Positions 1,296 to 53,475 of a stretch of DNA of 53,475 bases are shown piece after piece. The notes under the pieces were generated by a model that was not told where the DNA came from, ran no database searches, and saw only the letters and a program-made list of their open reading frames with translations. Position 1 is the first letter of the stretch; the number at the start of each line of letters is the position of its first letter. The stretch is from Peptococcaceae bacterium BRH_c4a. GTDB taxonomy: Bacteria > Bacillota > Desulfotomaculia > Desulfotomaculales > Desulfocucumaceae. The position numbers and the translations under genes are program-made. The stretch is taken from the NCBI GenBank assembly GCA_000961585.1, contig LADN01000010.1, forward strand, positions 1 to 53,475, written 5' to 3'.

Positions 1296-2108
1296 TCAAG
1301 AATCGTCCCCACTTGCCCCTTTCTTCTTCCTTTTTTTCTCATAACTTTCATTATCCATCCAACCCAAAAGACTACCTCCATCCACCTCCAAAGCTACTCC
1401 ACAAATCATTTCCGCCTTATCAGAAGCCAGGAATAGCACTGCTTTGGCTGGATCTTCAGGATTACAAAGCCGCCCTTTGGGAATAATCCTGGTCCTTTCT
1501 TCCAAGGTTTCCGGAGTGGCAATCCGCTGTATTAATGGGGTAATGGTAGCGCCCGGACAGATACAGTTAACATTTATACCATAAGGAGCAGTTTCATAAG
1601 CCAGATGCCGGGTAAAGCCAATCACCCCTTCCTTGGAGGCCGTATAGTTGGCTCCACCGTTATAGCTAATCCGCTTACCCCCGGTCGATGAGATGTTCAC
1701 TATTTTTCCATACTTTCTAGCTTTCATCAAAGGGAGAACAGCCTTGGAGCAAAGAAAAACGCCTGTCAGGTTAACGTCAATAACTCTCCTCCAATCTTCT
1801 TCAGTCATGTCTTCCACCATGGCACTGGTCCCAATACCCGCATTGTTGACCAGGATATCAACGGTTACCCAACATTTGACGGTTTCATCCACCATTGCTT
1901 TTACTTCGGCACTATTGGCAACGTTAACTAAAACCGCAATGGCTTCCCCGCCTCCGGCTTTAATTTCTTTTACGGTTTCCCGGGCGGAATCCAAATCCAT
2001 GTCGGCTACCGTTACCTTAGCTCCTTCCCGGGCAAAAGCCAAAGCTATTCCTTTGCCAATTCCCATTCCCGCACCAGTTACAATAACGACCTTACCAGCA
2101 AATTCCAA
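1296..2108 (-). CDS. Short-chain dehydrogenase/reductase (FabG-like)
   Basis: This is a 270-residue NAD(P)-dependent SDR. Visible motifs are the Rossmann TGAGMGIGKG near the N-terminus, NNAG, the catalytic Ser in ISSTGGK, YTASK (catalytic Tyr and Lys), and a DGGSLLGW end. The last about 20 residues (ESYEKKRKKKGASGDDS) are a charged tail beyond the usual SDR core. The start is a TTG at 2108 with GGAGG 9 bases upstream. Its neighbours do not point to a pathway. Candidates include 3-oxoacyl-ACP reductase and many secondary alcohol dehydrogenases, so no substrate is assigned. Confidence 0.85.
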   Translation of the reverse strand: MEFAGKVVIVTGAGMGIGKGIALAFAREGAKVTVADMDLDSARETVKEIKAGGGEAIAVLVNVANSAEVKAMVDETVKCWVTVDILVNNAGIGTSAMVEDMTEEDWRRVIDVNLTGVFLCSKAVLPLMKARKYGKIVNISSTGGKRISYNGGANYTASKEGVIGFTRHLAYETAPYGINVNCICPGATITPLIQRIATPETLEERTRIIPKGRLCNPEDPAKAVLFLASDKAEMICGVALEVDGGSLLGWMDNESYEKKRKKKGASGDDS

Positions 2109-2148
2109 TCCATATCGCCTCCACTTTGTTAGTTCTAAGTATGGCTAT

Positions 2149-2411
2149 CGAGGCCTGTCCCTTAACTTGTAAACTTATTGCCTGTTGATCGTCTTGTTAA
2201 TATACTTGAACACAGCCACCGAAGAGACTCCAATGTGGCAGGCTATTTCTTTCAGTGAATAACCGTGCTCCCATGCGGATTTTGCATATGCTGTCTTAAA
2301 TAGCACCTGGGTACTCCACCCGAGCTCGCCTGACCAAAGAAAAAACACCTCCTGCCATATTCTAACAGAGGGTGTTTGTTCCATCAACAATAAGTTAAGA
2401 GACAGGCCTCG
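2149..2411. mobile_element. MITE-like element with 20-bp terminal inverted repeats
   Basis: CGAGGCCTGTCCCTTAACTT at 2149-2168 is repeated in reverse complement at 2392-2411 with a single mismatch. Between them, on the minus strand, lie a GGAGG ribosome-site-like stretch (about 2346-2355) and, after a short gap, the HTH end of a transposase. This layout (left end with gene start, right end with gene 3' part, middle missing) is what an internal-deletion derivative of a small transposon would look like. The family is not identified. Confidence 0.55.
2175..2306 (-). pseudogene. C-terminal HTH remnant of an IS200/RayT-like transposase
   Basis: About 43 residues are legible: AYAKSAWEHGYSLKEIA, then CHIGVSSVAVFKYINK and a stop. 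A GYS-x-KEIA-x-HIGVS HTH at the very end is typical of REP-associated tyrosine transposases, which carry a DnaA-like domain after the catalytic domain. The catalytic domain (HUH motif and Tyr) is missing, so the fragment cannot transpose by itself. It lies inside the 20-bp inverted repeats. Confidence 0.55.
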
Positions 2412-2434: not shown

Positions 2435-2637
2435 CGCCCGTCAGGGCGTTTTTTTACCGTTAAGGAAAGCATATGCCATATTAAAGCATTAAAGCGCTAA
2501 AGCCTTATCGGCCCTAGTTCCTTCGGGGTCGCTTGAGGGTCACTTCTAAAGTATGCTGTCAACATTCTGGATTCTGGCTCCTGGCTCCTGGATTCCGCCG
2601 TCTGCAAGACGGCACCGCCGACAAGGCGGTTATTTTA
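2435..2637. repeat. Dispersed mosaic repeat, copy A (core deleted)
   Basis: The copy begins with the hairpin CGCCCGTCAGGGCG plus a T run (2435-2455), followed by the ATTAAAGCATTAAAGCGC tract, GGGTCGCTTGAGGGTC, the tract TCTGGCTCCTGGCTCCTGG, the hairpin GCCGTCTGCAAGACGGC (2597-2613) and the hairpin ACCGCCGACAAGGCGGT (2614-2630) with a T-rich tail. The large inverted arms and the core seen in the other copies are absent. The two end hairpins are of different types here, unlike copies C and E. It fills most of the gap before the ABC-F gene. Confidence 0.8.
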
Positions 2638-2655
2638 CATTGCCAGGCATTGATG

Positions 2656-2664
2656 TGATATAAT
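2656..2664 (+). promoter_or_regulatory. Extended -10 promoter element of the ABC-F gene
   Basis: TGATATAAT is a full TG-n-TATAAT extended -10, 49 bases before the ATG at 2713. The -35 region is weak (TTTACA or TTACAT at an 18-19 base spacing) and lies at the edge of repeat copy A. Confidence 0.45.
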
Positions 2665-2712
2665 GTATGATTGTTGGTTCGAAATATATTATGAAAGATG
2701 GTATTTTAACAG

Positions 2713-4311
2713 ATGATCAGTACACATGGCCTGGCACTGCACTTTGGTAAACGTATTTTATTTGAGGATGTCAATATTAAGTTCACACCGGGCAATTGTT
2801 ACGGCTTAATCGGCGCCAATGGGTCCGGCAAGTCTACTTTTTTAAAGATTCTGGACCGTGAAATTGAGCCCAGCGCAGGAGATGTTGTCGTTACTCCCGG
2901 TGAGCGGATAGCTGTTTTAAAACAAAACCATTTTGAGTTTGATGAATTCGAAGTGCTTAAAGTAGTTATAATGGGACATGCTAGGCTTTATGCCATTATG
3001 GAGGAAAAGGACTTACTCTATGCTAAACCAGATTTTTCTGATGCCGATGGGATCAGGGCGTCTGAGTTGGAATGTGAATTTTCTGAGCTTAATGGTTGGG
3101 ACGCGGAGATAGAGGCGGCTCGATTATTAAATGGCCTGGGGATTAAAGCAGATCTTCATGCTAAGAAAATGAAGGATTTAGGCGGGGTGGAAAAGCTGAA
3201 AGTCCTGCTGGCCCGGGCTTTGTTCGGTAACCCTGATATTTTATTGTTGGATGAGCCCACTAACCACCTGGACGTTGAAGCCATTACCTGGCTGGAAGAT
3301 TTTCTTTATAATTTTGATAACACCGTAATTGTTGTATCCCACGATCGCCACTTTTTAAATAAAGTGTGCACCCATATTGCGGATATTGATTTTGGCAATA
3401 TTCAATTGTATGTGGGAAACTATGATTTCTGGCTGGAATCCAGTCAACTGGCCTTGCAGCTGGCCAAAGACGCTAATAGGAAAAAAGAGGATAAGATAAA
3501 GGATCTGCAGCGATTCATTGAAAGATTCAGCTCTAATGCGTCAAAGGCAAAACAGGCCACATCGCGGAAAAGACAGCTGGAAAAATTGACACTGGAAGAT
3601 ATCAAGCCATCATCCCGTAAATACCCCTACATTCATTTCAAACAGGATCGGGAAGCGGGCAAACAACTGCTGACAGTGGAAAACTTAAACTTCAACATTA
3701 ACGGGGAGCAGGTTTTAAAGGATGTCAGCTTTACGGTGAATAAAGGGGATAAAATCGCCTTTGTCGGTTCTAACGGGCTGGCCCAAACCACTCTTTTCAA
3801 AATATTAGCGGGGGAGATTAATGCTGATAGCAGCTTTAAATGGGGTGAGTCCACTTCCCAAGCTTATTTCCCCAAGGATAATACGGAATACTTTAATGTT
3901 GACTTAAATCTGGTGGACTGGTTGCGTCAATATTCCAGAGAGCAGGAGGAATCTTTTGTCAGAGGTTTCCTGGGGCGGATGCTTTTTTCAGGTGAGGAAA
4001 CCCAGAAAAGCACAAGGGTACTCTCCGGGGGAGAAAAGGTACGCTGTATGCTTGCCAGGATAATGCTCAACGGGGCCAATGTTTTGATCCTGGATGAACC
4101 TACCAACCACCTGGATTTGGAGTCGATCACCGCCCTCAATAACGGGCTTGGCAAATTTGAGGGAACCATTTTGTTTGTATCCCAGGACCATCAATTGGTT
4201 CAGACCATTTCAAACCGCATCATCGAAATAACGCCGGATGGATTGGTGGATATGCAAATGACCTATGATGAGTATTTGGAAAATAAAAATGTAAAGAGCA
4301 GCTTAAAGTAA
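2713..4311 (+). CDS. ABC-F family ATPase with one degenerate ATP site
   Basis: The protein has 532 residues, two ABC domains and no membrane segments, so it is an ABC-F (YbiT-like) cytosolic ribosome-associated ATPase by family. Domain 1 has a canonical Walker A (GANGSGKST, 34-42), Walker B (LLLDEPTNHLD, about 177-187) and H-loop SHD (209-211), but its signature reads LGGVEK (156-161) rather than LSGGEK. Domain 2 has an intact signature LSGGEK (437-442) and Walker B, but Walker A reads GSNGLAQTT (352-360, without the Lys) and the H-loop reads SQD (490-492). The linker is short (about 245-315) and basic. The start ATG has only a weak ribosome site. A role in translation is inferred from the family. 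Confidence 0.88.
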   Translation: MISTHGLALHFGKRILFEDVNIKFTPGNCYGLIGANGSGKSTFLKILDREIEPSAGDVVVTPGERIAVLKQNHFEFDEFEVLKVVIMGHARLYAIMEEKDLLYAKPDFSDADGIRASELECEFSELNGWDAEIEAARLLNGLGIKADLHAKKMKDLGGVEKLKVLLARALFGNPDILLLDEPTNHLDVEAITWLEDFLYNFDNTVIVVSHDRHFLNKVCTHIADIDFGNIQLYVGNYDFWLESSQLALQLAKDANRKKEDKIKDLQRFIERFSSNASKAKQATSRKRQLEKLTLEDIKPSSRKYPYIHFKQDREAGKQLLTVENLNFNINGEQVLKDVSFTVNKGDKIAFVGSNGLAQTTLFKILAGEINADSSFKWGESTSQAYFPKDNTEYFNVDLNLVDWLRQYSREQEESFVRGFLGRMLFSGEETQKSTRVLSGGEKVRCMLARIMLNGANVLILDEPTNHLDLESITALNNGLGKFEGTILFVSQDHQLVQTISNRIIEITPDGLVDMQMTYDEYLENKNVKSSLK

Positions 4312-5732: not shown

Positions 5733-6180
5733 CCTAAAAGCGCTAAAGCCTTATCGGCCCTATTTCCTCCGGGGGTCGCTTGAGGGTCGCTGCATGGTCG
5801 CTAATGGGTAGGCGGAGCGATTTAAGTCCGGCCTGCATTACCTCCTGCTGCAACTGTCTCTAAACTCGGTCGCCAACGGAATGCCGACCATTTTGGAGGT
5901 GGGAGACCAGAGGTTAGAGGTTAGAAAACTTGTAGGAAATGACCTCAGAGCCATTTCTAGCTTAATCCGACTTCCAACTTCCAACATCTAACCTCCAAAT
6001 TCGTAGGCTCGGTCGTTAAGAGACAGTAGCAGCCTCCGGCACATTCCGCACGGACTTAAATCACTCCCCCTCACTGCATGTCGCTTGAGGGTCGCTTTTA
6101 AGGCAGCCTGTCACAATTCTGGCTCCTGGCTCCTGGATTCCGCCGTCTGCAAGACGGCAACGCCCGTCAGGGCGTTTTTT
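5733..6180. repeat. Dispersed mosaic repeat, copy B (inverted orientation, core type 2)
   Basis: The copy reads AGCGCTAAAGCC, GGGTCGCTTGAGGGTCGCTG, the arm GGCGGAGCGATTTAAGTCCG through CGGAATGCCGACC, then core type 2 with GGAGGTGGGAG, AGAGGTTAGAGGTTAG, CCGACTTCCAACTTCCAAC, the opposite arm, and the end hairpins GCCGTCTGCAAGACGGC (6142-6158) and CGCCCGTCAGGGCG plus T6 (6161-6180). It lies between two convergent genes. The last hairpin overlaps the 3' end of cvfB and supplies its stop codon. 5639-5732 holds a tandem AGCTATAAGCT stretch and otherwise nothing I recognise. Confidence 0.85.
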
Positions 6181-50490: not shown

Positions 50491-51004
50491 AAAAAAACGC
50501 CCTGACGGGCGTTGCCGTCTTGCAGACGGCGGAATCCAGGAGCCAGGAGCCAGAATCCAGAATGGTGACAGGCTGCCTTAAAAGCGACCCCACAGCGACA
50601 TGCAGTGAGGGGGAGGGGTTTGAGGACGTGCGGAATGTACCGGAGGATGCTACTGTCTCTTAGCGACCGAGCCTACGAATTTGGAGGTTAGATGTTGGAA
50701 GTCGGAAGTCGGATTAAGCTAGAAATGGCTCTGAGGTCATTTCCTACAAGTTTTCTAACCTCTAACCTCTCGCCTCCCACCTCCCAAATGGTCGGCAGTC
50801 CGTTGGCGACCGAGCATAGAGACAGTTGCAGCAGGAGGTTATGCAGGCCGGACTTAAATCGCTCCGCCTACCCATTAGCGACCATGTAGCGACCCTCGAG
50901 CGACCCCGGAAAAACTCTGGGCTGAATAAAAATTCTTTGGCGCTTTAGTGTTTTAATGCGTCCTATGCTTTCCTTGGTGAAAAAAAACAGTCCTACGGGC
51001 TGTT
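50491..51004. repeat. Dispersed mosaic repeat, copy D (core type 2)
   Basis: The copy begins AAAAAAACGCCCTGACGGGC, the hairpin GCCGTCTTGCAGACGGC and CCAGGAGCCAGGAGCCAG, then GGTGACAGGCTGCCTTAAAA, AGCGACC units, and the arm GTACCGGAGGATGCTACTG through CGACCGAGCC. Core type 2 (GGAGGTTAGATGTTGGAAG, TCTAACCTCTAACCTC) is followed by the opposite arm TTGGCGACCGAG to GGACTTAAATCGCTCCGCC and the tail. It ends with the hairpin CAGTCCTACGGGCTG (50988-51002) and fills the gap between the uracil-DNA glycosylase gene and the cooS promoter. Confidence 0.85.
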
Positions 51005-52992: not shown

Positions 52993-53475
52993 AAAAAAAC
53001 GCCCTGACGGGCGCTTGGGAATCCAGAATCCAGAAGCCAGAATCCAGAATGGTGACAGGCTGCCTTAAAAGCGACCCTCAAGCGACCCCACAGCGACATG
53101 CAGTGAGGGGGAGTGATTTAAGTCCGTGCGGAATGTACCGGAGGCTGCTACTGTCTCTTAACGACCGAGCCTACGGAATGCCGAGCCGGCTGCAGGACGC
53201 AGCCGGAAGCCGGAATCGACGCAAGGATGCGGCGTTGGAGGCGGTCGGCATTCCGTTGGCGACCGAGTTTAGAGACAGTTGCAGCAGGAGGTAATGCAGG
53301 CCGGACTTAAATCGCTCCGCCTACCCATTAGCGACAATGCAGCGACCCTCAAGTGACCCCGGAGCGACCCCGGAAAAACTCTGGGCTTGCATAAAAATGC
53401 TTTGGTGCTTCAGTGCTTTAATGCTTTAATGCGGCATATACTTTCCTTAACGATAAAAAAACGCCCTGACGGGCG
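52993..53475. repeat. Dispersed mosaic repeat, copy E (core type 1)
   Basis: The copy is bracketed by identical AAAAAAACGCCCTGACGGGC(G) hairpins (52993-53013 and 53455-53475, the window edge). In between are CCAGAATCCAGAAGCCAG, AGCGACC units, the left arm GGAGTGATTTAAGTCCG to CGGAATGCCGA (53109-53184), core type 1 (GCCGGCTGCAGGACGCAGCC and ATGCGGCGTTGGAGGCGG), and the right arm GGCATTCCGTTGGCGACC to TTAAATCGCTCCGCC (53247-53321). AGCGACC units, ACTCTGGGCTTGC and the TGCTTTAATGCTTTAATGCG tail follow. It lies just after the TerC gene. Confidence 0.85.

Follow-up and report, generated by a model that had tools for sequence, protein, structure and literature searches.

An internally deleted miniature of a RayT-type Y1 transposase element, with the same deletion junction in two distantly related Clostridia

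The locus described here bears on how REP and REPIN repeats originate from RayT transposases; the consulted part of Bertels and Rainey (2011, PMC3116915) proposes an ancestral IS200-like element whose ends gave rise to them. The locus lies in the window, i.e. the whole analysed stretch of 53,475 nucleotides, which is contig C17 of the draft genome of Peptococcaceae bacterium BRH_c4a (3.49 Mb, 98 contigs; G000 below). An earlier note, made from the letters of the window, described a short MITE-like element there. What is this element, what did it arise from, and how did it come to be where it is?

The inverted repeats of 20 bp with one mismatch reported in that note are indeed present at 2149–2168 and 2392–2411, with 19 of 20 positions paired (95% complementary) and 223 nt between them. 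By a rough estimate, a 19/20 inverted pair at most 300 bp apart would occur by chance anywhere in 8 kb with a probability of about 1e-4; the homologous copies described below matter more than this figure. As single-stranded DNA, the stretch 2142–2418 is predicted to fold end to end with −47.1 kcal/mol, compared to −30.4 ± 4.2 for 200 shuffled sequences (z = −3.98). The minus-strand open reading frame 2175–2414 (79 aa) has a probable helix-turn-helix (HTH) sequence at its end. Its last 49 residues were matched in 19 of the 100 genomes searched, the window's own genome counted, and many of these matches are the ends of open frames of 277–331 aa. The piece inside the arms is the probable HTH end of a Y1 transposase, in agreement with the RayT-type C-terminus proposed earlier.

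The ribosome-site-like stretch that had been noticed is AGGAGGTG at 2353–2346 of the minus strand. Directly after it, a TTG at 2337 opens a frame other than that of the 79-aa ORF, which reads LVRRARVEYPGAI and then stops. Since LVRRARVEYPGAI is the N-terminus of the parent transposase, as comparison with the parent described below shows, both ends of the gene are present in the element. Hence the statement that only the HTH end was left needs correction: the catalytic middle is gone, but the promoter-like sites, the ribosome site and the first 12–13 codons are also kept on the minus strand. The remaining N-terminal (12–13) and C-terminal (about 40) codons are in different frames, and there is no intact transposase in the element. 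Homology to the parent spans 2146–2411, slightly beyond the left end given before (2149). The arm at 2392–2411 is without one 8-bp unit, TTAACTTA; since other copies keep this extra unit, the arms of the family are about 30 nt long. The features are as follows.

2146..2411, minus strand: whole miniature element in transposase orientation, with its 5' terminus at 2411 and its 3' terminus near 2146 (BLAST to the parent and alignments)
2392..2411, minus strand: 5' terminal inverted repeat, transposase-start side, one TTAACTTA unit short (arm search, alignments)
2359..2387, minus strand: promoter-like pair TTGATG – 17 nt – TAGAAT, at the same place in relatives (consensus match only, and alignment of 10 elements)
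2346..2353, minus strand: ribosome-site-like AGGAGGTG (sequence; its four G positions are invariant in 10 elements)
2296..2337, minus strand: transposase N-terminal remnant LVRRARVEYPGAI and a stop made by the junction
2299..2300, minus strand: deletion junction, frame-shifting, 680 bp of the parent gone (BLAST, alignment)
2175..2299, minus strand: transposase C-terminal remnant, about the last 40 residues, with probable helix-turn-helix and stop codon
2149..2168, plus strand: 3' terminal inverted repeat, transposase-end side; likeness to the parent 5' arm extends to 2180
1296..2108, minus strand: neighbouring short-chain dehydrogenase gene, downstream of the promoter-like site of the element

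The parent was found by scanning contigs of named genomes with an alignment of 10 relatives. It is located in Gracilibacter sp. BRH_c7a (LOEZ01000031.1, locus L212:1419-2375), is about 0.96 kb long (957 positions), has both ends and encodes a protein of 280 aa. The full-length relative with the same C-terminus that the earlier note called for thus exists in that genome, whereas none was found in the own assembly of the window. The parent DNA runs from CGAGGCCTGTCCC to GGGACAGGCCCCG, and its arms have an inverted-repeat score of 21, the shuffle maximum being 10. The window element matches it on either side of a single gap (in BLAST, window 2297–2411 corresponds to parent 1–123, and window 2146–2299 to parent 801–954), with 94.2% identity over 260 columns. 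The gap comprises positions 121–800 of the 957, i.e. 680 bp, which is no multiple of three and thus shifts the frame. The match around this one gap supports the proposed derivation by internal deletion from a RayT-like transposase element. For the element alignments, the two parent halves had been joined 3 to 6 bases away from the true junction; the junction itself was verified separately.

The parent protein matches Pfam Y1_Tnp (E = 4.8e-13) and NCBIfam REP_Tyr_transpos (E = 1.5e-21; 76.8 bits, below the cut-off of 80 for this family). Its motifs NHYH and YIHLNP agree with the patterns NH[YF]H and Y[IV]HLNP of the Y1 domain, and the HUH residues (N59, H60, H62) as well as Y119, N123 and P124 are invariant among the 10 aligned relatives. 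The profile of the relatives matches the solved TnpA-REP structure (4er8, E = 0.0037). At the C-terminus, HTH matches of the window piece (sigma-4/YlxM-like) and of three relatives were weak and all below Pfam or curated cut-offs, and a profile matched the HTH chain 1s7o (E = 0.034); the C-terminal HTH typical of the class is likely present in the parent.

The deletion junction (A/G)TG(C/T)TAT^TTAAGACAG is the same in all five junction-covering copies found, each of which has different flanks. One of them is the window copy, two are in contig C45 of the same genome, and two are in C46 of Gracilibacter. Among the five, one is further deleted, one has an interrupted 5' arm and one is shortened in the 3' arm. 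Inverted ends, lack of an intact transposase, a parent with the same ends (in another assembly) and multiple copies of the same structure, as expected of a MITE, were all observed. The 3' arm of one Gracilibacter miniature copy is broken at L320:3081, and a group II intron match starts at the next base (3082–3235, minus strand). The same 3'-arm break followed by the same sequence is seen in a piece from C98 of the window's genome (L036, about position 1434); in spite of this shared sequence, nothing in L036 reached the Rfam gathering score.

In the genome of the window, 32 matches to positions 2130–2430 were obtained at E up to 1. At C45:6149-6401, 253 bp match the element at 94%; C45:5283-5451 is a part of the second copy, with a further deletion. 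The earlier note suggested searching the genome for the 20-bp ends, and they do recur: GGCCTGTCYCTTAACTT has 12 exact and four one-mismatch matches. With up to two mismatches 18 matches were obtained, compared to 11 for the reversed control, and the two-mismatch class (2 matches) was not relied on. Searches by Pfam family, by protein and by DNA with the parent retrieved no full-length copy from this assembly; the Pfam family search yielded two matches, in C77 (another type, cut by the contig end) and in C80 (a fragment). A 41-bp stretch of C23 matches parent positions 320–360, in the catalytic region, with 40 identities, and parent positions 631–724 are matched in C55 and C98 and in parts in C92, C70 and C86. 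These surviving pieces show that the genome once contained sequence from the catalytic region or from the middle part after it. The enzyme that would have moved the element here is either absent or was lost in the assembly of 98 contigs.

Several end pieces in the same genome are fused to fragments reading as RHS/YD-repeat genes; the C31 fragment matches Pfam RHS_repeat (E = 9.7e-14), the other places being judged by reading only. Transposase ends or remnants adjoin RHS/YD-repeat-like fragments at C31, C55, C70, C86, C92, C98 and C23, and at C98 such a fragment lies between the 5' arm and the transposase remnants, as if captured. Copies in this genome and in G100 are repeatedly bordered by ATATCG at one end and CGAAGC at the opposite end, and these flanks may represent true ends or a target; the window copy retains only a part of them.

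The element is 94–96% identical between the two genomes, compared to 67.4% for a stretch of rpoB (DNA, 1152 columns). Gracilibacter sp. BRH_c7a is placed in Gracilibacteraceae (NCBI taxonomy). The 1.4 kb upstream of the parent had no match in the genome of the window or in four relatives. The GC content is 33–46% in the tested Gracilibacter stretches, 51–52% in the genome of the window and 43% in the element. Since the rpoB stretch is only 67% identical, horizontal transfer is likely, and an exchange of the element, in either direction, between distantly related Clostridia would be the simplest reading. The main caveat is that both the host and the parent genomes are draft assemblies, and thus mis-binning could mimic transfer.

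Full elements were also found in relatives. In Peptococcaceae bacterium BICA1-7 (G002; contig C16 = JUEB01000016.1), which belongs to the same genus as the host of the window, there is an intact copy, whose open frame spans 293 aa (280 when counted from its TTG), and a further copy with a broken frame; the two are 93–95% alike in protein, and both have arms reading GGTGCC(A/G)GGC(C/T)CTTAACTT. Intact elements with arms such as GGGGTCAGGCTCTTAACTTATTAACTTATT are present in G090 and G027. Inverted arms scoring at least 16 were found in 10 of the 14 full-length RayTs of the order (shuffles reached at most 11), and a clear arm pair was not found in the other four. For a wider set, 36 of 80 loci were picked by hand and three were skipped because of a missing flank or a short frame; in 14 of the 33 tested loci the score exceeded the shuffles by more than 2 points and in 19 it did not, three of the 33 (L211, L216, L217) being elements already among the 14 of the order. 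With at most one mismatch, the core CTTAACTTRTTAACTTATT was matched in 29 of the 100 genomes, including that of the window, and the reversed control in four.

In ten aligned elements, the arm, the promoter-like pair, the ribosome site and the start follow in a common order. The arm tip reads GGCCTGTCCC. The outer 12 nt of the arms are 94% alike within elements and 67% between them (24 elements, window included), a difference reached in none of 20000 permutations, although this figure overstates independence because the copies are related. With six lineage representatives, the true arm pairing is the only such one among 720. Thus arms of different lineages co-vary at the outer 12 nt. These co-changing outer arms fit recognition of paired arms on single-stranded DNA; recombination between the arms could also keep them alike. 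In L103 and L110, from relatives G024 and G034, the RayT elements have arms that each form a near-palindrome around GTGCCAGGCAC, which might connect ends of the hairpin type with ends of the TIR type.

Derivatives of several sizes were observed in relatives. In at least five from G006, the arms enclose differing portions of the enzyme, e.g. residues 10–49 and 244–275; 10–29, 88–107 and 262–274; or 1–21 and approximately 247–275 (some end pieces are weak, with E up to 0.09). The G090 genome, in which the core matches 31 times in the forward and 33 times in the reverse direction, contains a full element together with 20 short palindromes of 69–74 bp (18 loci fetched). The arms of 18 of these palindromes are identical to those of the intact element, and those of the other two have one base changed. 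All 20 lie outside ORFs of at least 120 aa. No direct repeats longer than 2 bp surround them (the flanking repeat is 0–2 bp), and their flanks show only an A-rich/T-rich trend. Five palindromes of the same design, with a 44-bp core, are present in G006. The short palindromes are known from these other genomes and not from that of the window; they appear to descend from longer forms.

Taken together, the data argue, with a probability of roughly 0.85, that the window element is a MITE which arose from a TIR-flanked Y1/HUH element of the TIRYT/TIRtron type (RayT subclass 2.1) through a single internal deletion, and that it was mobilised in trans, spread and was exchanged between hosts. The anatomy, the parentage, the common junction, the copies in varied flanks, the co-varying arms and the size series in relatives are direct observations, from which we infer mobilisation in trans and present-day activity, as well as insertion itself and the exact ends. 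The parent has inverted arms of about 30 nt, with a promoter-like pair and a ribosome site immediately internal to the 5' one, and encodes a protein with the HUH/Tyr catalytic domain and, probably, the C-terminal HTH. In the proposed mechanism, this enzyme, supplied in trans, most likely recognises both arms on single-stranded DNA, as other Y1 enzymes do with paired arms (PMC6006769, the consulted part); the inner part of the arms contains repeated TTAACTTA units, which the HTH could read. It would cut and rejoin the arms, and insertion would proceed without target duplication. After the deletion, the short form would have spread alongside the parent, the window element being moved by an intact enzyme from another strain or, earlier, in its own strain. 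Further shortening might then yield palindromes of about 70 bp, with little beyond the two arms.

Other explanations of the locus were weighed against this one. The element might be kept by the host for regulation, either because its promoter-like pair and ribosome site face the dehydrogenase gene, which lies at a distance of about 250 bp, or through a role of its palindrome in transcripts. This is unlikely, even though the pair (consensus match at 2387–2359, minus strand) and the ribosome site stay at a fixed place across 10 elements and the copy at C45:6149 is likewise directed at an antitoxin–toxin pair: the use of the promoter in the parent would account for the conservation, and the consensus scan found three promoter-like sites around the window copy while 1.3 are expected in shuffles. 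It is rather improbable that the element is a dead remnant of a gene decayed by deletion, copied solely through segmental duplication or recombination and never mobile. Such a history would agree with the lack of an intact enzyme in the own assembly and with the many further-broken pieces in the genome, several of them fused to RHS/YD-repeat gene fragments, but the junction is the same in five different flanks and in two distantly related genomes, and the arms remain matched to each other within elements.

One could also take the 79-aa ORF for a real HTH-only protein that regulates or inhibits the intact transposase, given that the C-terminal frame is open both in the window copy (79 aa) and in the C45 copy (71 aa). 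However, the ribosome site feeds the other frame, which stops after 13 codons, the copies in C92 and C98 contain stops, and the changes are too few for a selection test; we consider a protein of this kind very improbable.

The preferred reading, an internally deleted and trans-mobilised TIRYT-type element, places the locus next to several known systems. TIRYT or TIRtron elements were published by Di Nocera et al. in 2013 (PMC3733652) and, judging by the consulted parts of both papers, probably correspond to subclass 2.1 of Quentin et al. (2018, PMC6006769). They share with the parent the Y1 transposase with HUH and Y..NP motifs (NHYH, YIHLNP), inverted repeats without GTAG and, probably, the C-terminal HTH, and the parent gene is flanked by inverted repeats, as is characteristic of this class. 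According to the same parts, TIRYT arms recur in published genomes as single, paired or grouped repeats, the motif GGGGWSAS is ascribed to the majority of the repeats without being a requirement, and class 2 RayTs are described as low-copy and possibly domesticated (PMC3733652, PMC6006769). The arms of the window element and of BRH_c7a read GAGGCCTG / GGGGCCTG and differ from this majority in having no GGGGWSAS, whereas those of G090, G027 and G006 carry it as GGGGTCAG. The consulted parts of these accounts describe neither internal-deletion derivatives nor near-identical transfer between distant hosts.

Similarly to the REPIN-RAYT system, in which the model of Bertels and Rainey (2011, PMC3116915, the consulted part) has REPINs moved in trans by a Y1 enzyme, a short intergenic palindrome is here composed of two inverted transposase-end sequences. 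In contrast to it, both 20-nt arms are without the GTAG (or GTGG) head and are long AT-rich repeats, some forms retain both ends of the gene, and the parent seems capable of transfer; RAYTs are treated in the consulted part of PMC8049555 as single-copy, vertically inherited, domesticated genes. The IS200/IS605 elements are alike in the Y1 catalytic domain and in producing no target duplication, but they are without terminal inverted repeats, while the parent is bounded by inverted repeats, probably carries an HTH at its C-terminus and reads Y..NP where they have Y..Q. The MITEs derived from DDE insertion sequences are short, with inverted ends and a deleted transposase, occur in several copies and have a known parent. 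The window element resembles them in all these respects and differs in that no target duplication surrounds the related palindromes and the parent is of the HUH/Tyr rather than the DDE type.

The titles and abstract openings of the open-licence papers listed mention no internal-deletion TIRYT forms with both gene ends, and likewise no common junction in two distant hosts or graded series down to bare paired ends. As far as these portions of the literature go, the TIRYT/TIRtron family and the recurrence of its arms as dimers are already known, and the deletion forms, the common junction and the graded series appear to be new. A RayT-class Y1 transposase is found here with the marks of a mobile element: one copy is intact, two distant hosts have miniature copies that share a single deletion, one relative shows several different deletions and another has bare paired ends. 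This suggests continuing mobility, with small repeats left behind, for a kind of transposase that is commonly regarded as a settled host gene. More tentatively, and with somewhat less than even odds, TIRYTs of these Clostridia may be living, horizontally moving insertion sequences whose internal-deletion forms, reduced to bare paired ends, provide a path from a RayT transposon to REPIN-like repeats. The defined parent–derivative pairs make cutting, joining and transposition in trans assayable.

The earlier note also suggested a possible link, through a full-length relative, with the mosaic repeats next to the element. This link is unsupported and is rejected on present evidence: the genome contains 325 matches of the mosaic unit (up to two mismatches; control, 1), compared to 16 good matches of the element ends. 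By distance, 15 end-bearing places were considered, the two-mismatch places C1 and C85 among them; three lie at most 500 bp from a unit, and 1.4 are expected if the units are uniform. By sequence, the best common word is a 12-mer (E = 0.028) found with the window copy only and located in the inner palindrome of the mosaic (window approximately 6015–6026), the rest being 9-mers. Examination of the mosaic repeat by eye revealed no ends in common with the element and no transposase or its remnant. The short mosaic unit is TCGCTTGAGGGTCRCT and, among the 100 matches listed, is often paired at 250–316 bp. The nested palindromic mosaic repeat lies at 5800–6085, 50594–50879 and 53000–53340 of the window; scoring 40 of its 221 candidates gave 40 matches of 211–302 bp with 87–100% identity, plus one short match, and several are located at contig ends.

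Several further arrangements were seen in the genome of the window. In L033 1248–2789 (C45:5247-6788), a Phd/YefM antitoxin – ParE/RelE toxin pair lies between two miniature copies that point the same way, an arrangement resembling a composite transposon. The 5' arm of a miniature copy is interrupted by an insertion of about 360 bp (L033, approximately 2402–2764); the ends of this insertion are ACTCAACTTTCGCA / TGCGAAAGTTGAGT, and it contains an Rfam match to the TwoAYGGAY RNA (2524–2682, minus strand, 57.1 bits). At the end of C77 (L048 1575–2240), another RayT, cut by the contig end, is directly followed by a GTGCGACAGCG...CCCTGTCGCAC palindrome; the elements at C55 and C70 have similar sequence nearby. 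A second miniature family has three copies, L208 (C9:4000-5600), L209 (C5:18900-20025) and L210 (C97:400-2300), and keeps the N-terminus of another RayT together with a piece from further downstream, the middle being absent; its arms are GGGGTCAGGCTTTCA / TGAAAGCCTGACCCC, both seen in the C9 copy. This copy starts at the end of a CRISPR array, inside the degenerate last repeat (Rfam CRISPR-DR2); the array has 10 repeats in the fetched stretch and 21 in the longer locus L203.
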